From NCBI GenBank assembly GCA_009838975.1, contig VXQO01000051.1, forward strand, positions 1-64,000: a stretch of DNA of 64,000 nucleotides, read 5' to 3'. Position numbers and translations under genes: made by a program. This DNA is from Gemmatimonadota bacterium. GTDB lineage: Bacteria > Gemmatimonadota > Gemmatimonadetes > Longimicrobiales > Gaopeijiaceae. The notes below the pieces were generated by a model. It saw only the letters and a program-made list of their open reading frames with translations. It was not told where the DNA came from and did no database searches. Position 1 is the first letter of the stretch. Each line of letters opens with the position of its first letter. Shown in pieces: positions 1 through 12,101 of the stretch.

Positions 1-2580
1 GCCCGCCCCGCCCCGGCGCTGGCCCGGATCCTCGCCGCGGCGGCCATCTTCGCCCTCCTCATCCCCCACCCCAACACCACCGCGGCCCAGCGCCTCCCCG
101 ACCCCTCGCCCGGTGAGCTCGCCGCGCTGTCGGTCCCGCGCTTCGCGATCGCGCCATCGCCCATCGAGCTGACCGGCCCCGTACGGCCCGGCGAATACCT
201 CGGCGTGACCGGCCCGCGCGCGGCATGGCTCGGGCTGGAGACGGGCGAGGCCGAGTTGTGGGTGCATCCGCTCAAGGTGGGCAGCGGCTTCCGCCTCGCC
301 TTTTCGACATCCGGTTACGGGGCCCCGATTCCCGGCGGGCAGGTGGCGCGCACGGTGCACGTCCGGCCCGAGATGACGACGATCACGTACAGCCACGCGG
401 CGTTTCAGGTGCGGCAGCACATCCTCGCGCCCCGCGACACCGCTGCGACCGGCCTCCTCGTGCTGCTCGAGGTCGACAGCCCGGAGCCGATGGAGATCGT
501 CGCCGAGTTCCACCCGGTGCTCAACTACATGTGGCCGGGGTCGCTCGGCGGACAGTACGCGTACTGGGACGGGGACCGGCGCGTCTTCGTGCTCTCCGAG
601 AGCCTGCAGACGCGGAACGCCGTGGTGGGCTCGCCGTGGGCGACCAACTCGGTCGAGCATCCGGCGCATCAGTTGGGCGAGGCGCCGCGCACGATGGTCA
701 TCCCGGTGGATCCGGAGCGCGCGCGGGCGGAGTTCATTCCGATCGCCGTGGCGGCCGGGACGGTGCCGCGCGATACGGTGTTTGCGCGGTACGGGCGGTT
801 GATTTCGGGCGCCGAGATGTTCTACCGGGACACGCGGGGGTGGGCCGACTCGGTGCTGGCGAATACCGCCTCGGTAGTGACGCCTGATCCGTCGCTCGAC
901 CTGGCGCTCGAATGGGCCAAGATCAACCTGGAGGAGCAGCGCGTCTGCAACCCGGACCTGGGGTGCGGCTTCGTCGCCGGCTGGGGACTGTCGGGTGACG
1001 GCAGCCGGCCGGGGTTCGGCTGGTTCTTCGGCGGCGACGCGATGATGAACACCTACGCGATGGACGCGCTGGGGCAGTGGGAGCTGGTGGCAGAGGAGCT
1101 CGCCTTCCTCGCGAAGTATCAGCGCGGCGACGGTAAGATCACCCACGAGATCTCGCAGGCCGCGGCCCACATCGACTGGTTCGACACCTACCCCTACGCC
1201 TACTACCACGCCGACACGACGCCTCACTGGATGTTTGCGGTCTACCAGTACTGGCTCGCCAGCGGCGACGACGAGCTGCTGCGCGAGCTGTGGCCGGCGT
1301 ACCAGCGCGCGTGGGCGTGGTGCCTGAGCGCGGAGACCGACGGCGACGGGATCATCGAGAACACGGTGGGCGGGCTGGGCGCGGTCGAGGTCGGCGGGCT
1401 GGGCGAGGCGCTCCACCAGGACATCTACCTGGCGGGCGTGTGGGTGGCCGCGCTGGAAGGCACGCTGGCGATGGCGGAGCATCTGGGCGACGCGGAGCTG
1501 GCGGCGCAGGCGGCGCTGATCGCGCCCACCGCGCGCGTGACTCTGAACGACGCGTACTGGCGCCCCGACGTGGGCCATCATGCGTTCGGGATCCTGGCGG
1601 GCGGCGGCACCAACGACAACCTGACAGTGTGGCCGGCTACGGCGGCCGCCTTCGGACTGCTGGAGGACGAGCGGGCCCGGTCGACGCTGGCGCTGATCGC
1701 CGGCGACCGCGTGTCATCGGACTGGGGCGCGCACATGCTCTCGACCGAGAGCGAGCTTTACGACCCTCTCCAGTACAACATGGGCACCGTGTGGCCGTTC
1801 GTGACCGGCTTCGCGTCTTGGGCGCAGTACCGCTACCGGCGGCCGTGGGCGGGATTCCACCTGATGGACGCGATCAGGCAGATGACCTTCGACTGGAGCC
1901 TCGGCCGCCACGGTGAGCTCTTCTCGGGGAGCTTCTACCAGCCCCTCGACCAGACGGTGCCGCACCAGTTCTTCGCGACCTCGATGCTGGTGACGCCGCT
2001 GCTGCGCGGTGTCTTCGGGTGGGAGCCGGACGCGCCGAACGGCCGGGCGCGGCTCGCTCCGCAGCTGCCGGCGGACTGGGACGGGGCGTCGGTGCGCGGG
2101 TTGCGAGTGGGTGAAACGACGGTCGATGTGGACATCACGCGGCGCTGGACCGGCACCGGTGGGGAGCAGCGCGTGGTGGTCGGCACCGACGGGCCGCCGG
2201 TGGGCATCGATTTCGTGCCGGATGTGCCTGTGGGGGCGACGAATGAGACGGTGACCGAGTCCGCGGACGGGGGGTTCACGGCCACCTGGCAGGGTGGCCT
2301 CGCAGTGGCGCCGCCCCGTATCGACCTGCAGCCGGGGCAGCGCAGCACGGGCCTCCGGATCATCGACCTGGTCGCCGATGGCGGCGGATGGCTGCTGACG
2401 GTCGAAGGTACAGCCGGTCGTGACTACGACGTCCATCTCTTCGGTACGCCGGTCGACGCCGCCACGGACGATGCCGCCGCCACCGTGTCGAGCCGCCCGG
2501 GCGGCACCATCGGCGTCAGCCTTGCCGGCGAGGCGGGGCGCGTGACTGCGGTGTTGAGGCTGACGCCGAGAGATCCATGA
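1..2580 (+). CDS. Secreted (alpha/alpha)6-barrel glycosidase, amylo-alpha-1,6-glucosidase (debranching-enzyme) like; 5' end missing
   Basis: The reading frame is open from base 1, so the start lies left of the window; 859 residues are visible. The first codons encode a hydrophobic stretch (about residues 8-22) ending in TTAAQ, which looks like a signal peptide, so the protein is probably exported. An all-beta N-terminal part precedes an (alpha/alpha)6 barrel with GWFFGGDAMMN and YNMGTVWPF, typical of the glycogen-debranching/amylo-alpha-1,6-glucosidase C-terminal fold. A beta-rich tail follows. The likely role is hydrolysis of an alpha-linked glycan outside the cytoplasm; the substrate cannot be told. 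A second barrel glycosidase lies about 7.5 kb downstream, on the far side of the sterol-type genes. An internal ATG/GTG start would cut off the signal peptide. Confidence 0.75.
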   Translation, partial: ARPAPALARILAAAAIFALLIPHPNTTAAQRLPDPSPGELAALSVPRFAIAPSPIELTGPVRPGEYLGVTGPRAAWLGLETGEAELWVHPLKVGSGFRLAFSTSGYGAPIPGGQVARTVHVRPEMTTITYSHAAFQVRQHILAPRDTAATGLLVLLEVDSPEPMEIVAEFHPVLNYMWPGSLGGQYAYWDGDRRVFVLSESLQTRNAVVGSPWATNSVEHPAHQLGEAPRTMVIPVDPERARAEFIPIAVAAGTVPRDTVFARYGRLISGAEMFYRDTRGWADSVLANTASVVTPDPSLDLALEWAKINLEEQRVCNPDLGCGFVAGWGLSGDGSRPGFGWFFGGDAMMNTYAMDALGQWELVAEELAFLAKYQRGDGKITHEISQAAAHIDWFDTYPYAYYHADTTPHWMFAVYQYWLASGDDELLRELWPAYQRAWAWCLSAETDGDGIIENTVGGLGAVEVGGLGEALHQDIYLAGVWVAALEGTLAMAEHLGDAELAAQAALIAPTARVTLNDAYWRPDVGHHAFGILAGGGTNDNLTVWPATAAAFGLLEDERARSTLALIAGDRVSSDWGAHMLSTESELYDPLQYNMGTVWPFVTGFASWAQYRYRRPWAGFHLMDAIRQMTFDWSLGRHGELFSGSFYQPLDQTVPHQFFATSMLVTPLLRGVFGWEPDAPNGRARLAPQLPADWDGASVRGLRVGETTVDVDITRRWTGTGGEQRVVVGTDGPPVGIDFVPDVPVGATNETVTESADGGFTATWQGGLAVAPPRIDLQPGQRSTGLRIIDLVADGGGWLLTVEGTAGRDYDVHLFGTPVDAATDDAAATVSSRPGGTIGVSLAGEAGRVTAVLRLTPRDP

Positions 2581-2641: not shown

Positions 2642-3685
2642 ATGCAATTGCGTCGACTATCCAGGGGACTGAAGTCCGCGTTCGCCAAAACGAACGTCAG
2701 CCGTCGCGTGCGGGATTTCGAAGGATGGACGGACAGAGCGTTCGCCGCGGATGGCGGCGCAGCCGGCTACGACCACACCCGCACCGCTACGGAATACTAC
2801 GACCTTTGCGGCGAATTGATGGTCTTCGGCTGGGGAGAATCCCTGCACTTCGCGCCGCTGTCGCCCGGCGAGAGCCTGAAGGACTCAAAGATCCGGCACC
2901 AGCGACAGATGATCGCCAAGCTGGAGCTGCGTGAAGGCATGACGGTGGCCGACATCGGGTGCGGGATCGGAGGCCCAATGCGCCGCGTCGCCCGTGAAGC
3001 CGGGGTCCGGGTACTGGGAATCAACAACAGTGAAACCCAGTTGAGCAGGGCCAGGTCGCTGAATGCCGAGGCGGGGCTCGATCACATGATCGACTGCCTT
3101 GCTTGCAGCTTCATGAATATGAGTTCCATCGCGGACGCGACCTTCGACCGGGGCTACGCGATCGAATCGACCTGCCATGCTCCCGACAAGGCACGGGCGT
3201 TTGCCGAAATCCACCGTGTCCTGAAGCCCGGAGCCCTTTTCTGGGGCCAGGAGATGTGCATGACGGATGTGTACAATCCCCACGACGATCGCCACCGGGC
3301 CATCAAGCGCGAACTTATGCGCGGCATCGCGCTCAAGGATATCGCAACGTTCGGGGAAGTGGACCGGGCTCTCGAAACCGCGGGGTTTGAGGTCCTGGAG
3401 GCAACGGACCTCGCTGTCGATGAGACCGGGCCAACCACGCCGTGGTATCAGCCCATGGAGGCCCGGCACGGGTGGCTCGGCAGCGCTCTCGTCCAGGCTC
3501 CCATGGGTCGCAGGATGTTCTTCTGGGCATCCAGGCTGGCCGAGCTTCTGCGGGTGTTCCCCAGGGGATCGGCGGAGGTTGTCGAACTCATGGATCGGAC
3601 TGCAGATGCCTATGTCGCTGGCGGGAGAACCGGGATCTTCTCGCCGCTGTACTGCTTCCTGGCGCGCAAGCCCCTTGCCGGCTAG
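2642..3685 (+). CDS. Sterol 24-C-methyltransferase (ERG6/SMT family)
   Basis: 347 residues. It should transfer methyl from S-adenosylmethionine to the C-24 double bond of a sterol side chain. Seen: the sterol-binding region I (about 52-70) with GWGESLHF, close to GWGSSFHF of fungal and plant enzymes; SAM motif VADIGCGIGGP (about 102-112); YAIESTCHAP (about 172-181), almost the eukaryotic YAIEATxHAP; and a complete sterol-methyltransferase C-terminal domain ending GGRTGIFSPLYCFLARKP. These separate it from cyclopropane synthases and tocopherol methyltransferases. The first tyrosine of the eukaryotic YEYGWG motif (Y81 in yeast ERG6) is methionine here. There is no strong ribosome-binding site. 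Its stop shares the bases CTAG with the stop of the convergent RND gene. Family is confident; substrate and number of methylations are unknown. Confidence 0.87.
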   Translation: MQLRRLSRGLKSAFAKTNVSRRVRDFEGWTDRAFAADGGAAGYDHTRTATEYYDLCGELMVFGWGESLHFAPLSPGESLKDSKIRHQRQMIAKLELREGMTVADIGCGIGGPMRRVAREAGVRVLGINNSETQLSRARSLNAEAGLDHMIDCLACSFMNMSSIADATFDRGYAIESTCHAPDKARAFAEIHRVLKPGALFWGQEMCMTDVYNPHDDRHRAIKRELMRGIALKDIATFGEVDRALETAGFEVLEATDLAVDETGPTTPWYQPMEARHGWLGSALVQAPMGRRMFFWASRLAELLRVFPRGSAEVVELMDRTADAYVAGGRTGIFSPLYCFLARKPLAG

Positions 3686-6600
3686 CCGCGCCGGGTGGTC
3701 ACGTGCAGGCGGAGCGAGGACAGCGCGGGCACCAGGAACATCAGCAGGGCCGTGGTGAAGAGGATGCCGCACCCGATCGAGGCTGAGAAGGGGACGAAGA
3801 ACTGGGCCTGAATGGCGTCTTCGAGAATCAGAGGTGTGAAGCCGAGGAAGGTGGTTAGCGAAGTAAGCATGATCGGACGAAAACGACCCTTGGCTCCCTC
3901 GATGATCGCCTCGCGCGCCGGAAGACCCTCCTCGAGTTCCTGATCGATGAAGTCCATCATGACCAGGGAATCGTTCACCACCACGCCCGCAAGGCCGAAT
4001 ATCCCGACAAAGGACTCGGCGCTCAACGCCACTCCCAGGACCCAGTGGCCCAGGATCACGCCGACGAACCCGAACGGGATGATGGCCATGATGATGAACG
4101 GCTTGGTATAGGAACGCAGCGGAATGGCTAGCAGCGCGAAGATAATCAGTAACGCTATTGCGAAACCGCGGTAGAGCGCGCCCAGGGAGTCAAGCTGCTG
4201 TTGCTGTTCGCCGCCAAAGGTATAGGTCAGACCGGGGTTCGTATCGACCAGTCCTGCGAGTATGGTGTTTTCCAGGATGCCATTGGCTTCCCCGGCGGAA
4301 ATCACATTGGGGTCCACATCGGCGGTGACCGTGACGACGCGCTGGCCGTCCTGGCGACGGACGGCCGGCGGCGACATGCCCGGACTAAGTGAAGCCACAC
4401 GGCTCACCGGTACCTCGGCACCGTTTTCCGTACGGAGCAGGTAGCTCTCGATGTCGGCGATCGAGTTACGCTGCTCTTCGGGCAGTCGGACGTAGACCCG
4501 GACTTCGTCGCGTCCTCGCTGCACCCGCAGGGCCTCCGCCCCAAAGAAGACGGCTCTCGTCTGCTGGGCCAGCGCGTCGAGCGTCAGACCGAGGGTTCGT
4601 GCTTCAGGCAACAGTCCCAGCTGAACCTCCGGGACGCCGGGCGTGTGGTCCGAGCGAATGTCAAAGACACCCCCCACTCCACGGAGGTCATCGACCACGG
4701 ACGATGCGATCGCGACCAGGCGCTCCGGATCCGGATGGGACAACACGGCTTCCAACGGGTTGCCCAGCGTGTAGATCTCGCTCATGAAGGTGATCCCGCG
4801 CACATGGGGCAGGATGCCCACCTCCTCACGCCAGGCCTGCATGACTTCTCCCGACGTGATGCTCCGCTGCTGCGCCGGCAGGAGCTTGAACTCGATGGTG
4901 GCGATATTGGCTTCGGGGTTCAGGGTAGGCGAGGGGTTGAGGCCTCCAGTCTCGATCCGCGACCGCTGGCCGACGACAACCGTAACGCCTGATAGAAGCG
5001 GAGACGCATCTTCGGGCCGGCCCTCGGAGAGACGCTGGATGACCCGGTGACCGGCCGCCTCCAGGTCCCGTGCCACCGCGTCCGTCTGCTGCGCGGTGGT
5101 TCCGTCCGGCATCTGAAGGGTGGCGGTTACGAAGTCCCCTTCGACCTCGGTCGCGAAGGTGGTGGGCACGATGCCGGCCGGCAGCAGGGAAACGGTGAGT
5201 ATGAAGAGAGCGACGGCTGCGGAAAGCGTTACGCCGGGTCGATCGGTCGCGAACCGCATCCCGTGATCCAGGGGACCCTGGATGAAACTGTTCAGCAGGG
5301 AGTCGACCCGACCCTGGATGCGGGCGATGAACCGCTCCGCGCCCGTGCGGGGCGCCCAATCGGGGCCGTGCAGATGGTGCGACAGGTGGTTGGGCAGCAC
5401 CAGCAGCGACTCGACCAGCGAGATCACCAGCATGGCGATGACGATGATGGGCAGCGCCTTCCAGACTTCTCCGAACCCCGCGGGAATGAAGAGCAGGGGG
5501 ACGAACGCAACGATGGTGGTGAGCACCGCAAAGATCAGCGGCACCTTGATCCGCCGCGCACCGCGGATAGCGGCGACGACGCCCGGAGTGCCTCGCATTC
5601 GTTCCAGATGGATATGTTCGGCGACGACGATCGCATCGTCCACGATGATTCCGATGGCAAGCACGAAAGAGAAGAGTGAGACGGCGTGGATGGCGATGTC
5701 GAACATCATCATGGCGGACAGGGCGCCGATCCCCGCAACGCCAAGGCCGACGGCTACCCAGAAGGCCAGGCGGACTTCCAGAAAGAGGCCCAGCGCAATC
5801 AACACCAGCAGCAGCCCCAGAGCCCCGTTCTTGAGGAGGAGGGCGGCGCGCTCCGTGAACGCCGTGGAGTCGTCGTTCCAGATGGTCACGCCCACGCCGT
5901 TGGGGAGTGAAGGGATCACTTCATTGGCTACGTGCTCCTTGACGGCACGCGCCACGCTCATGACCCTTTCGCCCTTCGCCCGGGATACCTCGACGAAGAC
6001 TGCGGGCTGGCCCTGATGCCGCACGATCAGATCCGTGTCCTGGAACCCGTCACGCACTTCGGCAATATCGCCCAGGCGCACGACCGTGCCGTCGTCCCGG
6101 CTGAGGAGAACGATTTCCTCGAAATCCTGTTGGTCGTAGCTCTGGCCAAGTGTGCGCACCCGCACCTGGGACTCCCGGGTATCGATACTCCCCGCCGACA
6201 GATCCAGTGAGTTACGGCGAATGGTGTTCGCGATATCGATCAGGGTCAGGCTGAGAGCCCTGAGACGTTGCTGCGGCACCTCGATCGAAATCTCGTAGTT
6301 GCGCACGCCGCTCGTCGCGACCTGGGAGACGGAGGGAAGCGCAGCGAGGTCGTCTTCGATCCGGTACGCGAGTTCCTTGAGCGAGCGCTCGGGAACGTCG
6401 CCGTAGACGATCAGGCGAATCACGCTCTGGGCGTTGGTCATCTCGCGTATCTGGGGCCGCTCGGCTCCGCCCGGAAACGTCTGAATACGCCCGATCGCCG
6501 ACTCGATCTCGTCTTTCTTGGCGCCCATGTCGGTGCCGGAGTTGACTTCAACCCTGACGGACGCCATCCCCGGCGCGGCTATGGACCTGACCGCCTTCAC

Positions 6601-6861
6601 ATCGGCGAGTCCCCTGACCTCGTCCTCGATCTTGACGACGATGGCCTCCTCCACCTCCTCGGGGGTTGCGCCGGGGAAGGGCACGGAGATCTCGAACTGG
6701 TTGAAGGGTACCTCGGGCCAGCCCTCCTGCTCGAGACCGGTCAGCGACACCAGACCCGCTGCGATGATCCCGAACATGAGCAGATTGGCGGCAACGCCGT
6801 TGCTCGCCATGTACGCAATGGGGCCGCCAGGCTCTCCGTGGTTGCTCGAGTTCCCGCTCAT
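3682..6861 (-). CDS. RND-superfamily transporter (HAE-1/AcrB-like permease), possible sterol or lipid exporter
   Basis: 1059 residues. An inner-membrane proton-driven pump: one N-terminal helix after a short leader (MSGNSSNHG, then ANLLMFGIIAAG), a large periplasmic loop, a helix bundle, and a second copy of that plan. The proton-relay pair is visible in GIIVDDAIVVAEH, as in AcrB TM4. The ATG at 6861 was chosen because the upstream gene stops 5 bases earlier and GGAG sits between, which points to translational coupling; the frame extends further upstream but there lies inside the P450 coding sequence. No membrane-fusion protein or outer-membrane channel is adjacent. Drug-efflux pumps look alike; a sterol cargo is inferred from the operon and from the known RND sterol transporter BstA of Methylococcus. 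Confidence 0.85.
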   Translation of the reverse strand: MSGNSSNHGEPGGPIAYMASNGVAANLLMFGIIAAGLVSLTGLEQEGWPEVPFNQFEISVPFPGATPEEVEEAIVVKIEDEVRGLADVKAVRSIAAPGMASVRVEVNSGTDMGAKKDEIESAIGRIQTFPGGAERPQIREMTNAQSVIRLIVYGDVPERSLKELAYRIEDDLAALPSVSQVATSGVRNYEISIEVPQQRLRALSLTLIDIANTIRRNSLDLSAGSIDTRESQVRVRTLGQSYDQQDFEEIVLLSRDDGTVVRLGDIAEVRDGFQDTDLIVRHQGQPAVFVEVSRAKGERVMSVARAVKEHVANEVIPSLPNGVGVTIWNDDSTAFTERAALLLKNGALGLLLVLIALGLFLEVRLAFWVAVGLGVAGIGALSAMMMFDIAIHAVSLFSFVLAIGIIVDDAIVVAEHIHLERMRGTPGVVAAIRGARRIKVPLIFAVLTTIVAFVPLLFIPAGFGEVWKALPIIVIAMLVISLVESLLVLPNHLSHHLHGPDWAPRTGAERFIARIQGRVDSLLNSFIQGPLDHGMRFATDRPGVTLSAAVALFILTVSLLPAGIVPTTFATEVEGDFVTATLQMPDGTTAQQTDAVARDLEAAGHRVIQRLSEGRPEDASPLLSGVTVVVGQRSRIETGGLNPSPTLNPEANIATIEFKLLPAQQRSITSGEVMQAWREEVGILPHVRGITFMSEIYTLGNPLEAVLSHPDPERLVAIASSVVDDLRGVGGVFDIRSDHTPGVPEVQLGLLPEARTLGLTLDALAQQTRAVFFGAEALRVQRGRDEVRVYVRLPEEQRNSIADIESYLLRTENGAEVPVSRVASLSPGMSPPAVRRQDGQRVVTVTADVDPNVISAGEANGILENTILAGLVDTNPGLTYTFGGEQQQQLDSLGALYRGFAIALLIIFALLAIPLRSYTKPFIIMAIIPFGFVGVILGHWVLGVALSAESFVGIFGLAGVVVNDSLVMMDFIDQELEEGLPAREAIIEGAKGRFRPIMLTSLTTFLGFTPLILEDAIQAQFFVPFSASIGCGILFTTALLMFLVPALSSLRLHVTTRRG

Positions 6862-6866
6862 CTCCG

Positions 6867-8897
6867 TCAGGCCGGCAGTTCCCGCACCTGCTCCGCGATG
6901 AGGAACTTCAGCTTCTTGCTCGGCTTCATCGAGGGGAACGGATTGAACCTGAACCTGAAGTCCGCCGGGGACACCTTGACCGTGAAGTAGTGCGCGACCA
7001 TCAGGAGATTGACGGCCAACTGCAGCTCCATCCAGCGGAAGCCTAGACACCTGTGCGTGCCCAGGCCGTACGGTGCATACCCGTGACCCCGATGCTCATG
7101 CCGCGGCGCCCGATAGCGGTCCACATCGAACTTGAACGGGTCCCGGAAGACGTCTTCCATGAAGTGCGGTGCCGTCTGCGCGATCAGGATTGTCGTACCC
7201 ACAGGCAGTTCGTAGCCTTCGACCACGCACGCATTCATGACGGTGCGCATGGACATCGGGACAATCGGGTACATCCGCAGGCATTCCATGAGGAAGCGGT
7301 GGGTGAAGTCCAGCGCAGCAGGCGTGAAGTCGTCGCCACCCGGATCGCCGTCGCTGAACAGCGCGTCGGCTTCGCTCCGGATCCTCGCGTAGTCGTCAGG
7401 CCTTGACGCCATCGCATAGACCGTAAAGCTGAACGCGTCGCCCAGGTACACGCTGGCAATCAGTGCCGCGGACAGCGCGAAACGCAGGTTCGACTCCGGA
7501 ACGAACTGCGGATCGCTCGCATTGAGGCTCAGCAGATCATCCGCGAGGTTGCGCGGGCACCCGGCGCGCTGCGCGGGCGTATGGACACTCTGGATGCGTC
7601 CCAGCAGCGTGTCCACGGCCCTGGCCCGCCGCTTCATTCCCGGAGTCTTCAGCATGAACCTGGGCAGGGCCTTCGTGATGTGAACGTTGAGCGCCCGTTC
7701 CTTGTATGTCGCCACGTCGTCGAAGATGTCCTGCGATTCCACGCTGACGAACATTGGCGAAATCTGCGAGTTGATCATTCGCCTACACATCTTCGTCGCG
7801 GAGAGGGTGTCACCGACCCGCCACTCCGCCAGGTGTTTCCGGGCATGGCGGAGAAGATCATCCATCTGATCCGCGAGTCTCCGGCGCGAGTACGCCGGCG
7901 CCAGGGCCTTGCGAAGCCGGAAATGATCCGCGCCATCCAGAGAGGGCAGGACGCCGGACGCACCGTAGACTTTCTCGAAATCGGCGAAGTAGTCCCTCGC
8001 TCTCAGGTGCATCCGCCCGTGCCGATTCGTCCAGCGGTTTATCTCGGTTCCCGCAAGGAAGACCATGGGCTTCCGGAGCGGCGGACGGATCTGGTACACC
8101 GGGCCATACTCCCTGGCGAGATCCGCAAAGAGGGCGGGGAGATTGCCGGCGCGCAAGTTTGGATTGAACAGCAGTTTGCGCATTGCGACGCGCGGGATGT
8201 GTTTGCTCAGGCGGGAACTCCGAAGGAGGGGTCCCGCGGCATTGTGGACAACCGCGGCGGCGATCGAGCGGCCGATCAGGTCCATCCTGCAAATGAACTC
8301 GATACGCTCCTCGGCCTCTTCATCGAGCTGGAACATGAACCGGAAGACATCGCAGGTATTCACAAGGCAAACAACGATGACGTCCCGCGGATAGGGAATC
8401 GCGTCGGTGAAGATCGCCTTGCCGATCCGCGTCTTGATGAACTGTCCGGCCGTGTCCTCCTCGGGATCGCCGTACATGTCCGAATGCCGCACGGTACGAG
8501 CCACCGTCCAGAAATCGCCGTCGTGGTGTTCCAGGATCTTGAGTTCGACCAGACGGTCGAGGGTCAGGTCGATGACGGATTCGGCACGGTGGGCCAGCCG
8601 TTCGATCCAGTACTGCGCGTTTCGTTGGACCGATTCGCTCGCGATTTCTTCCAGAATGGGATCCAGGGCAGGATCCCCGGTCTTCGACGCGTCGACCAGG
8701 AACAACGACTCCAGGTCCGTATCGATGCGCGAAAGCAGGGAGAGTTCCGCAAGCACCGCGCCAACGACGGCGCAGTTCAATCGCCAGCCGGGCACCTGGT
8801 GAAAGTAGCCGTTCTCCTCGTTGAGGAGCATCAGGATGAGTTCTTCGGGCAGGCTCAACTGCAGGGTGTGGAGCCCTTCCTCTGTCGCAACAGCCAT
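6867..8897 (-). CDS. GPP34 (GOLPH3-like) domain fused to a cytochrome P450
   Basis: 676 residues. Residues about 10-225 match the GPP34 fold of Golgi phosphoprotein 3/Vps74: LSLPEELILMLL, TGDPALDPILEEI, YWIERLA and a late hydrophobic helix VIVVCLVNTCDVF. Residues about 235-670 are a P450: ECLR (K-helix ExxR, E538/R541) and heme loop YGLGTHRCLG with cysteine ligand 617, phenylalanine of the usual motif being tyrosine. The I-helix (about 474-497, LIASVYLGDAF) lacks the acid-threonine pair used for oxygen activation. GPP34 in eukaryotes binds phosphoinositides and membranes, so here it may tether a P450 that has no membrane helix. The ATG at 8897 follows AGGAGGTGA at good spacing. It lies 32 bases after the Rieske gene and 5 before the RND gene. 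Substrate unknown; a steroid is inferred from neighbours. Confidence 0.88.
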   Translation of the reverse strand: MAVATEEGLHTLQLSLPEELILMLLNEENGYFHQVPGWRLNCAVVGAVLAELSLLSRIDTDLESLFLVDASKTGDPALDPILEEIASESVQRNAQYWIERLAHRAESVIDLTLDRLVELKILEHHDGDFWTVARTVRHSDMYGDPEEDTAGQFIKTRIGKAIFTDAIPYPRDVIVVCLVNTCDVFRFMFQLDEEAEERIEFICRMDLIGRSIAAAVVHNAAGPLLRSSRLSKHIPRVAMRKLLFNPNLRAGNLPALFADLAREYGPVYQIRPPLRKPMVFLAGTEINRWTNRHGRMHLRARDYFADFEKVYGASGVLPSLDGADHFRLRKALAPAYSRRRLADQMDDLLRHARKHLAEWRVGDTLSATKMCRRMINSQISPMFVSVESQDIFDDVATYKERALNVHITKALPRFMLKTPGMKRRARAVDTLLGRIQSVHTPAQRAGCPRNLADDLLSLNASDPQFVPESNLRFALSAALIASVYLGDAFSFTVYAMASRPDDYARIRSEADALFSDGDPGGDDFTPAALDFTHRFLMECLRMYPIVPMSMRTVMNACVVEGYELPVGTTILIAQTAPHFMEDVFRDPFKFDVDRYRAPRHEHRGHGYAPYGLGTHRCLGFRWMELQLAVNLLMVAHYFTVKVSPADFRFRFNPFPSMKPSKKLKFLIAEQVRELPA

Positions 8898-8929
8898 CTG
8901 TCCATCACCTCCTGCCTGGGCGTTGACGG

Positions 8930-10039
8930 TCACCCTCGACCCTCTCCCGCCGGACGGCCGGCCACGCCCACCAATCCGAGCCGGCGCGTCGGCTCGGCCC
9001 GTGATCGCAGTTCCGGGTAGAACTGTCGACAATACAGGCGGTACCTCCCGATCGGACCGTCGGCCCGGGACAGCCGGGGCGGGACACAATACCGCTTCCG
9101 ATTCCAGATAACCACGTCCTGCAGGACGAACCGCCTCTCCTCCGACAGGAAGAAGCGACTCATCAGCCTGTGGCGCAACGGCACGGGCAGGAACCCCAGG
9201 CCCACGAAGAATCGCCCCGGCCTGCGGATTTCCCGTACCTGGGTAACCAGCGTCATCTCGAGCCGCGTGTCTGCTACGGGCGTTGCGAGAACCCACATTC
9301 TCGCGCTCATGCCTACCGTCTTTTCGCGGATTTCGACAAATGAGAACCCCAGCCCATGGACGTGGGTGACGGCCGAGACTTCGGAGACGATATCGACCAG
9401 ACCCGCGAACCGGCGGACGTTCTTGAAGTCGAAGCAACTCTTCAGGTAGGCGCCATCGATGGCCAGGGGAGCGGTCGGTTCCACGTCGTAATAGCCGTGC
9501 GTGTAGTCCAGGTGCTCCAGGTCCACGGAGTTCTCCGTCGTTTCCTGGGGATGGCCCCGGAAGCGCAACCTGGTGAAGCCCAAATTGCTCCAGTCCGAGC
9601 CCGTGGGGGGTTCCTCGGGCAGATTCCATTGCGGTTCTCTCCCGCCGCTGCCCCACCAGGCGAAGATCATGCCGAGAATCTCGTGGGTCTCGTAAACCCT
9701 CAATCGCGCAGCCTTCGGGGCCGGGGCATGCGGAACGGCAACGCACCGGCCGGTCGTGTCGAAGGTGAATCCGTGGAACGGACAGACCAGGCACCCGTCG
9801 CGCACCACACCACCCACCGTCGGTCCCATGTGCGACCCCAGGTGCGGGCAGTAGGCGTCGGCGACACAGACTCGACCTTCCTCGTCGCTCCAGGCGACGA
9901 TCTCCTCGCCCATCCACTTTCTCTCGATCAGCTTCTTCTCCTCCAGGGTCTTGCGATCCGTGAGGAAGTACCATCCTTCGGGGAACGGAGGCAGCTTCTC
10001 GAGGACGCGGAGCGAACGGCCACTCGCATGCGTGTCCAT
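8930..10039 (-). CDS. Rieske non-heme iron oxygenase, KshA / cholesterol 7-desaturase (DAF-36/Neverland) type
   Basis: 369 residues. The Rieske [2Fe-2S] site is C64-x-H66 (CPHLGSHMG) and C86-x2-H89 (CPFHGF). The mononuclear iron site is ENSVDLEHLDYTH (N170, D173, H176, H181), and a further Asp sits before VIWNRK near the C-terminus. The order of motifs and the ending IWNRK...RLYCRQFYPE fit the oxygenases acting on steroid rings: 3-ketosteroid 9-alpha-hydroxylase KshA, cholesterol 7-desaturase and bacterial SdmA. It probably oxidises a sterol ring carbon; which one cannot be read from sequence. No ferredoxin or reductase gene is nearby. First gene of the operon running into the P450 fusion and RND pump. 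A GTG at 10054 is an alternative start; neither start has a clear ribosome-binding site. Confidence 0.85.
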   Translation of the reverse strand: MDTHASGRSLRVLEKLPPFPEGWYFLTDRKTLEEKKLIERKWMGEEIVAWSDEEGRVCVADAYCPHLGSHMGPTVGGVVRDGCLVCPFHGFTFDTTGRCVAVPHAPAPKAARLRVYETHEILGMIFAWWGSGGREPQWNLPEEPPTGSDWSNLGFTRLRFRGHPQETTENSVDLEHLDYTHGYYDVEPTAPLAIDGAYLKSCFDFKNVRRFAGLVDIVSEVSAVTHVHGLGFSFVEIREKTVGMSARMWVLATPVADTRLEMTLVTQVREIRRPGRFFVGLGFLPVPLRHRLMSRFFLSEERRFVLQDVVIWNRKRYCVPPRLSRADGPIGRYRLYCRQFYPELRSRAEPTRRLGLVGVAGRPAGEGRG

Positions 10040-10120
10040 GGCGCAATATAGCACGGGAAGTACCGCTTTTGTCCATTATTCCCGCAGCGAGTAGCTTCAG
10101 AAACAAATCAAGACAACCAA

Positions 10121-10148
10121 ACATTACATAATGTCAAGTGTACATTAC
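10121..10148. promoter_or_regulatory. Candidate operator: inverted and direct repeats of ACATTAC
   Basis: The divergent gap between the Rieske operon and the GH63 gene is strikingly AT-rich for this chromosome. It contains ACATTA-CA-TAATGT (10121-10134) and a second ACATTAC at 10142-10148, exactly 21 bases (two helical turns) from the first. A TTGACA hexamer reads toward the Rieske gene at 10137-10132, but no convincing -10 follows. This looks like a binding site for a dimeric repressor, perhaps of TetR type, controlling one or both genes. No regulator gene is in the window. Confidence 0.4.
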
Positions 10149-10160
10149 AAACGAGATGTC

Positions 10161-12101
10161 ATGGGACACCCACGCCTGCATATGGGTGCTCTTGAAGCGC
10201 GTCGGTGGGCCGGCCTGGTGTTCGCTTCGGAATCGGACCACGGAATCGGCCTGCGTGTCGGTTTCACCGACGCCGACGGACGGCACCGCGATTTCGACGA
10301 CTGGCACTGGATGGTCTCGCAGGTCGGCCCTCACGCGCCAGACGGCTCGTATGCGCGCATGGAGTTCGACCTCTCCATCGAACCGTCGCAGCGCTCGCGG
10401 CCAGCGGCGAGCACCCTGATCGTGGAGTGGTCGCGCCGAAATGACGCGGTGGCGCTGCGCGCGACAGCGAAGGCGCCCGGTCGCCTGATGGTGATCGGAG
10501 ACGCGCCGTGGGGGTGGCGGGATCGATGGCGGGAGGAAACCGCCGCCGATGGTTTGTGGCGTGCCTCGGTTGGTGGTTTGGAGATCGCCGCCGCGTTCTC
10601 GCCGGAGACACGGCCATGCCGACCGCTGCGGCCGGGACGCGGCGAGCTTGCGAGATGCCTCGCTGTCGAGCCCGGGAACCCCTCTCGCCTGGCCGCCGTC
10701 GCCGCCTGGGGCGCTGAGGACCCGGCGACCCGCGCCACCGGACTGCTGGTTGACGTCGACACCTGGATCGACAATGCCCGCGCCGACTGGGATCGGCGCC
10801 GCCCCCGCTCCCCGGACGGCTGCGAGGGCCTGGTCGAGAGCATCGCCGACAACCTCATGTGGACCGTGCTGCTCCAGCCCAAGTCCGGCCGGCTCTACAC
10901 GCCCGCCGGCCGCCGCTGGATCTTTCCGCGGCCTCGCGCGGCCTCCGGCGCCGGTTCGCCCGAGCCCGACGACTGGACCATCTTCGGCTGGGACACCTTC
11001 TTCAACGCGCTTCTCCTGACCACCGTCTCCGGCGAACTGGCCTGGTCCACCCTCCTCGCGGGCCTCGATACCCGCTACCCGAACGGCAACGTCCCCAACT
11101 GGCGCAGCCGCCGCGGAGGCACCCCCGACCGCTCCCAGCCCCCGGTCGGCTCCTTCGCCGCGCTGCGGCTCTACCGCATCCACCCGGACCGCCCGGCTTT
11201 GGCCGCCGCCTATCCCGGCCTCCTCGCCTGGTGCGACTGGTGGGTGGCCGACAAGGACGGACGACCGCGCCGCGAAGGCCTCACTCCGGGCCTGCTCTCG
11301 TGGGGTTCGGACACGGCGCGGGTCCCGCCTGCCGAGCAGGTCCCCGAGTGGGAGGTGGGAGCGAGCGGCCACCGGCGCGCGGCCTGGGAATCGGGCCAGG
11401 ACGACCTCCCGCTCTGGGACGATGTCGAGTGGAACCCCGAACACCAGGTCCTCGCCATGTCGGCCGTCGACCTGTGCAGCTACCGCGCCCTCGACCTGGC
11501 GTGCCTGTCACGCATCGCGCGCATCCTGGGCGACGGCCCCACCGCGCGGCGGCTCGACGCCATGTATCACCGCCTCGCCGAGACGATGAACCGGACCCTC
11601 TGGGACGAGGCCGCCGGCCTCTACCTCGACGAGCTGCCTTGCGGGCGGTCGCAGCGGGTGGCAGCGTCGCACTTCCTCCCCCTCACCGCCGGGATCCCTT
11701 CACGGCGGCGTGCCCGGCGCATGGCCGACGTCCTGCGCGACCCGGCCCGCTTCTGGGGTGACTGGGTGCTGCCCACGATCGCGCGCGACGACCCCGCGTT
11801 CGCCGACCAGCAGTACTGGCGCGGCTCGATCTGGCCTCCCATGAACTACCTCGTGCTGCAGGGGCTGCGCCGGTACGGGTTCGACGACCTCGCGTCGGAC
11901 CTCGCGTGGAAGGGCGCGCGCATGTTCCTCGCCGACCGCCGCCGCACCGGATTCTGCCGCGAGAACTTCGATGCGCGCACGGGGCGCGGGTGCGGTCAGC
12001 GGTTTCAGAGCTGGGGGCCGCTGTTCGCGCTGGGAGCGCTGGAACTCACCCCAGCACCGCTACCACGGCCTCCACAACCTCGTCGACCTGATCCCCGGTG
12101 A
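10161..12101 (+). CDS. GH63/YgjK-like (alpha/alpha)6-barrel glycosidase
   Basis: 646 residues from the ATG at 10161, chosen because GAG precedes it; the frame is open from an ATG at 10131 that would overlap the candidate operator. Seen: WTIFGWDTFFNALL, a WESGQDD motif, WNPEHQ and the late YWRGSIWPPMNYLV, which match the GH63/trehalase-like clan (YgjK, mannosylglycerate or glucosylglycerate hydrolases). The role is cleavage of an alpha-glucoside or compatible-solute glycoside; the substrate is not decidable. There is no signal peptide, so it is probably cytoplasmic, unlike the glycosidase at the left edge. Its 3' end overlaps the convergent lysJ gene by 56 bases, with a proline/arginine-rich tail that may be read-through into that gene. 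Confidence 0.72.
   Translation: MGHPRLHMGALEARRWAGLVFASESDHGIGLRVGFTDADGRHRDFDDWHWMVSQVGPHAPDGSYARMEFDLSIEPSQRSRPAASTLIVEWSRRNDAVALRATAKAPGRLMVIGDAPWGWRDRWREETAADGLWRASVGGLEIAAAFSPETRPCRPLRPGRGELARCLAVEPGNPSRLAAVAAWGAEDPATRATGLLVDVDTWIDNARADWDRRRPRSPDGCEGLVESIADNLMWTVLLQPKSGRLYTPAGRRWIFPRPRAASGAGSPEPDDWTIFGWDTFFNALLLTTVSGELAWSTLLAGLDTRYPNGNVPNWRSRRGGTPDRSQPPVGSFAALRLYRIHPDRPALAAAYPGLLAWCDWWVADKDGRPRREGLTPGLLSWGSDTARVPPAEQVPEWEVGASGHRRAAWESGQDDLPLWDDVEWNPEHQVLAMSAVDLCSYRALDLACLSRIARILGDGPTARRLDAMYHRLAETMNRTLWDEAAGLYLDELPCGRSQRVAASHFLPLTAGIPSRRRARRMADVLRDPARFWGDWVLPTIARDDPAFADQQYWRGSIWPPMNYLVLQGLRRYGFDDLASDLAWKGARMFLADRRRTGFCRENFDARTGRGCGQRFQSWGPLFALGALELTPAPLPRPPQPRRPDPR

Follow-up and report, generated by a model that had tools for sequence, protein, structure and literature searches.

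A GPP34–cytochrome P450 fusion protein conserved across bacterial phyla in a gene neighbourhood that points to sterol tailoring

The GPP34 domain (PF05719) is familiar from GOLPH3, an adaptor of the Golgi that binds glycosyltransferases through their tails and so holds them. PI4P, the lipid that GOLPH3 contacts, is not a usual bacterial lipid. The N-terminal domain of the protein described here, which is encoded by bacteria that appear to be mostly sponge-dwelling, shares its fold and Pfam family with GOLPH3 and Vps74; it differs from them in being joined to a P450, in not conserving the PI4P-contact residues, and in lacking an insertion of about ten residues that is present in human GOLPH3. 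According to a 2025 paper, GOLPH3-like proteins had not previously been described in prokaryotes (PMC12402492). SCO4440 of Streptomyces coelicolor is, like the present protein, a bacterial GPP34 protein, and some functional data are available for it; however, it is a standalone protein, tied to the formation of wall-deficient cells and not to sterols (PMC12402492).

The nearest P450 by profile, which is also among the nearest by fold, is the sterol enzyme CYP51, including the CYP51-ferredoxin protein of Methylococcus capsulatus, itself a bacterial P450 fusion but with another fused domain. Sterol gene clusters have been described from sponge symbionts: they are widespread and transferred among the symbionts of Ircinia (PMC9531527), one (msb) is found in a Melophlus symbiont (PMC7074536), and the sterol methyltransferases (SMTs) of sponge-symbiont bacteria act on sterols in vitro (PMC10070321). 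These clusters resemble the present locus in their occurrence in symbionts of many phyla, in their SMT and Rieske genes and perhaps in horizontal transfer; they differ in being built around ERG24, CYP51 and a cyclase, whereas the genome studied here has no cyclase. The word GOLPH3 is absent from the main texts of all three papers, and GPP34 from that of PMC9531527. A literature search, with subscription journals and domain-architecture databases outside its scope, found no relevant papers on GPP34 or GOLPH3 with a P450.

The fusion gene and its neighbours in the window (the whole 64,000-nucleotide stretch of DNA analysed) are as follows; here and below, locus counts refer to the 80 loci listed of 279 candidates in a single scan across named genomes.

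2642..3685 (+): sterol C-24 methyltransferase homologue with Sterol_MT_C (Pfam); homologue in 49 of the 80 listed loci
3682..6831 (-): AcrB-type RND transporter, downstream on the same strand as the fusion; homologue in 18 of the 80
6867..8897 (-): GPP34–P450 fusion protein, 676 aa, stop-free frame
6906..8147 (-): cytochrome P450 domain, residues 251-664 (Pfam 103 bits; Foldseek matches)
7047..7049 (-): codon of the heme-ligand Cys617 (YGLGTHRCLG), invariant in the alignment of fused sequences
7437..7457 (-): I-helix stretch ASVYLGD (residues 481-487), replacing the usual (A/G)Gx(D/E)T
8148..8249 (-): linker, residues 217-250, modelled partly at low confidence (220-230)
8250..8852 (-): GPP34 (GOLPH3/Vps74-like) domain, residues 16-216 (Pfam 98 bits; HMM match in its own genome at identical coordinates; fold)
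8904..8912 (-): strong Shine-Dalgarno site GGAGGTGAT (given as AGGAGGTGATGGACAG before the ATG at 8897)
8930..10054 (-): Rieske oxygenase with a KshA_C domain, KshA/SdmA-like, upstream on the same strand; homologue in 65-67 of the 80

A first-pass annotation of this DNA had described a single continuous frame, preceded by a good ribosome-binding site, that joins a complete GPP34 domain to a complete P450, and this description is confirmed. The frame is translated without a stop, the Shine-Dalgarno site is strong, and both domains span nearly their full Pfam profiles: PF05719 with 98 bits against a cut-off of 29.1 (positions 1-198 of 201) and PF00067 with 103 bits, far above the Pfam cut-off (20-459 of 462). 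The reading frame stays open 5' of the ATG at 8897, as far as 10124; this ATG was assigned as the start because the Pfam domains, the Shine-Dalgarno site and the aligned starts of relatives agree. The listed loci are full or nearly full length, with 65-89% identity, and all 80 are free of internal stops. Among them are the 'chromosome: 1' records (closed chromosomes) OX638356, OX639991, OX638375, OX638353 and OX638324. Since all of these read through, a frameshift or assembly join is ruled out, and the break between the two parts that the annotation had named as its refutation is absent. The GPP34–P450 architecture is genuine and conserved.

The assignment of the N-terminal part to GOLPH3/Vps74 came only from profile and fold searches; phmmer with the GPP34 part alone found nothing below E 0.1 in the PDB. 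All PDB matches with E <0.001 to an AlphaFold2 model of residues 1-226 (pLDDT 84.9) are GOLPH3 or Vps74 structures, with TM 0.5-0.7, the next match being at E 0.46 (Foldseek). The GPP34 fold proposed in the annotation is thereby upheld. A model of the whole protein (mean pLDDT 84.5, pTM 0.74) matches P450s in the PDB, among them CYP184A1, CYP51fx (a CYP51-ferredoxin P450), BM3 and CYP46A1. No membrane helix is reported by Pfam or evident in the model.

All fused sequences share the heme cysteine C617 and the ExxR residues E538 and R541 without exception. Searched against PDB sequences, the P450 profile matches CYP51 structures best, and identity to solved structures is about 20%. Unlike CYP51, the fusion P450 has no GxHTS motif in the I-helix. 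In the subfamily of the window's protein (subfamily A) the corresponding stretch reads ASV-YLGD, one residue shorter than in the paralogous subfamily C (VGLDTTAS), and the acid-threonine pair of canonical P450 monooxygenases is absent, and with it the usual proton relay. Oxidation may still take place, since some P450s without that relay are active.

The genes around the fusion are conserved across phyla, a feature that the first-pass annotation had not recorded. That annotation had proposed looking for the fusion next to SMT genes, and the two do occur together: an SMT is present in 49 of the 80 loci, in 35 of them no more than 200 bp away from the fusion, and in 43 it is accompanied by the Rieske gene. 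The SMT in the window contains both a methyltransferase domain (PF08241, 64 bits) and Sterol_MT_C (PF08498, 53 bits). For the Rieske protein the nearest curated sterol model is SdmA, at 42 bits against an NCBIfam cut-off of 600, while its best PDB matches are 3-ketosteroid 9alpha-hydroxylases. Clustering of neighbouring frames revealed an FAD oxidoreductase of the amine-oxidase/protoporphyrinogen-oxidase type, and not of the KstD type, in 48 of the 80 loci; it is outside the window, on another contig of the same genome, at 79% identity. Transporters of the MMPL type with Patched/sterol-sensing domain matches occur in 32 of the loci and another MMPL protein in 11; the MMPL protein has a match to HpnN as well. 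No ferredoxin or reductase partner for the P450 was identified. Glycoside-hydrolase-like proteins lie on either side of the cassette, DUF608/GH116-like at 205-2580 (+) and MGH1/GH63-like at 10131-12101 (+), and both recur with it in several relatives.

In one locus, from Nitrospira bin75 (L073), the fusion adjoins a biosynthetic cluster: after the fusion and its SMT come another SMT, a 1220-aa squalene epoxidase/cyclase, a P450 distinct from the fusion, ERG24 and a Rieske gene. This further P450, of the ordinary kind, is located between the cyclase and ERG24, and for this locus we rejected the identification of the fusion P450 with the CYP51 of the known sponge sterol clusters. The genome of the window, by contrast, lacks both ERG24 and a cyclase. 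PF13243 is absent from it (G000), from the closed genomes G001 and G021, and from 19 of the 23 genomes of the genus in all, while the expected control genomes were positive; none of G000, G001 and G021 has the oxidosqualene cyclase that defines a de novo sterol producer. Squalene-hopene and oxidosqualene cyclases (SHC/OSC) were likewise not found in the genomes of OX638356, OX639991 and OX638375 by a search that finds cyclases elsewhere. Among 13 genomes behind named loci, six have a cyclase match and seven have none. In genomes without a triterpene cyclase, a sterol substrate must therefore come from outside.

The genomic setting points to sterol tailoring. The explanation we favour, with somewhat better than even confidence, is that the protein tailors sterols with its P450 and carries a domain that docks it to a membrane or a partner. 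The heme-thiolate P450 would oxidise a sterol while the GPP34 domain anchors the enzyme to the cytoplasmic membrane or to a partner; the P450 would share a short pathway with the C-24 methyltransferase, the KshA/SdmA-type Rieske oxygenase and the FAD oxidoreductase, and passage of the sterol through the envelope would be the task of a transporter of the RND superfamily. For the window's genome, the substrate would be an imported one, most likely from a sponge host. In favour of this explanation are the conserved neighbours, the position of the fusion in L073, the missing cyclase, the FAD protein elsewhere in the window's genome, the likeness of the P450 profile to CYP51, the invariant heme and ExxR residues of the fusion, the GOLPH3/Vps74 fold, and the published SMT activity and Ircinia clusters cited above. 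The sterol substrate, the order of the steps and the GPP34 role are inferred. Against this, the P450 is not close to any characterised sterol P450, its I-helix leaves ordinary oxygen activation unassured, the RND protein of the window is of the generic AcrB type, and the P450 has no identified redox partner. The association of the fusion with sterol-modifying and transport genes even in genomes unable to build sterols suggests that these bacteria share a set of tools with which imported sterols, probably those of the host, are remodelled. A wider formulation, a mobile pathway common to sponge symbionts of many phyla that remodels sterols they do not make, with a P450 of altered oxygen activation positioned by a bacterial relative of a Golgi adaptor, is plausible at somewhat less than even confidence.

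Docking of the enzyme to a membrane or a partner is the most likely general role of the GPP34 domain, judged from its family alone. The PI4P-contact residues of GOLPH3, which we take to be W81, R90, R171 and R174, align by profile with P36, V45, E106 and I109 of the window's protein. The residues found in these columns across 97 subfamily-A sequences are P, V/I/A, E/D and I/V, and never Trp or Arg. Because the four residues are not conserved, phosphoinositide reading is unlikely and PI4P binding is disfavoured; the domain may be another kind of membrane tether or a protein-docking module. In the latter form, one of the two that our preferred explanation allows, GPP34 would bind the Rieske oxygenase, the SMT or the RND transporter and so gather the enzymes. 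This fits the loss of the PI4P residues alongside three GPP34 residues (W97, R157 and R171, fusion numbering) that are invariant in all fused copies, the conservation of the partner genes and the established binding of partners by GOLPH3, but the partners vary among phyla, with three RND types, while GPP34 is kept. We regard protein docking as a real contender, though one that probably does not hold in place of a lipid tether.

The sterol-tailoring explanation has two rivals as to substrate and direction, both improbable. The P450, the KshA-like Rieske oxygenase and the FAD enzyme could represent the opening steps of sterol catabolism, as the 9alpha-hydroxylase matches of the Rieske protein would allow; a C-24 methyltransferase is, however, anabolic, the FAD protein is not a KstD, and in L073 the set adjoins a biosynthetic cluster. 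The substrate could instead be a triterpenoid other than a sterol (a hopanoid, for instance) or some other kind of lipid, a similarly doubtful proposal. Some Chloroflexota hosts have strong SQHop_cyclase_C matches in frames resembling hopene cyclases, and the HpnN match of the MMPL protein is in keeping with this, but neither kind of cyclase is present in the window's genome or its closed relatives, and an SMT with Sterol_MT_C is adjacent. Least probable is the remaining part of the first-pass interpretation, a headgroup sensor, read here as one through which a phosphoinositide or other specific phospholipid turns the P450 on at the membrane: its fold component stands, but the replacement of all four contact residues throughout the subfamily speaks against the sensing component, as does PI4P not being a usual lipid of bacteria.

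When 59 genomes were searched with the fusion protein and its parts, 39 had a match to the whole or to one part. Counted from the resulting table, subfamily A is present in 19 of the 23 genomes of the same genus and some fused copy in 22. The titles of the 80 listed loci name Gemmatimonadota/Longimicrobiales, Chloroflexota (SAR202, Dehalococcoidia), Alpha- and Gammaproteobacteria, Nitrospira, Binatia, Acidimicrobiia and Latescibacterota. From their isolate names, these records appear to be mostly sponge-symbiont MAGs; the codes RHO, COS, IRC and APA fit sponge species of PMC8163846. The window's own bacterium probably lives in a sponge as well. A tree built from 70 GPP34 domains places all 36 fused copies in a single clade (bootstrap 100, SH-aLRT 96), which contains subfamilies A, B, C and D and has standalone GPP34 proteins from the same family next to it. 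A single fusion event is likely, because all sampled fused domains fall in this clade. The deepest sampled variety lies in the window's own family, on which the sampling was centred, and suggests an origin there. In a tree compared by phylum, the labels change 12 times, where 8 is the minimum possible and record titles and binning are imperfect; this is compatible with horizontal transfer without proving it.

Sponge sterols serve as molecular fossils for early animals, and a symbiont contribution to them is already suspected (PMC10070321). If the favoured explanation is correct, bacteria without a cyclase possess a conserved sterol-modifying cassette, and host and microbes can make sponge-type sterols jointly. 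The fusion would also provide a setting for a direct test of what GPP34 does in bacteria, because here the domain sits on an enzyme with assayable activity.

Further copies of the fusion were observed. A 98-residue fragment of a second GPP34–P450, with 58% identity, lies near an intact copy (L135:14012-14305). The window's genome also has a second, divergent GPP34–P450 of about 32% identity (G000:C42:103641-105515; L005:9657-11825), with orthologues in L049, L051, L052, L053, L054 and L056. In seven of ten close orthologues of this paralogue the frame departs from the P450 at the same codon, just past the heme motif CLGSG, and enters sequence common to several genomes; in L047, L048 and L050 it runs on as normal. 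It looks as if the codons just past the motif are a recurrent insertion point. In the window's genome a repeat of about 115 bases, dispersed and with a conserved core (GAATCNCGGCAGG...CTGCACGATCTGCGTTTCCTGCCGTT), marks the insertion and has 18 matches there (G000:C42:105480-105601 and 17 more, L199-L208). Rfam scans of the paralogue loci found only tRNAs, with no match for the repeat where scanned. An integron attC site was considered for the repeat and dropped, the core site being unconserved among copies and no integron integrase scoring above the cut-off. Downstream of the broken paralogue, a frame at L005:11844-13500 resembles by eye a DUF262/HNH (GmrSD-like) protein, suggesting a defence gene beside the insertion.
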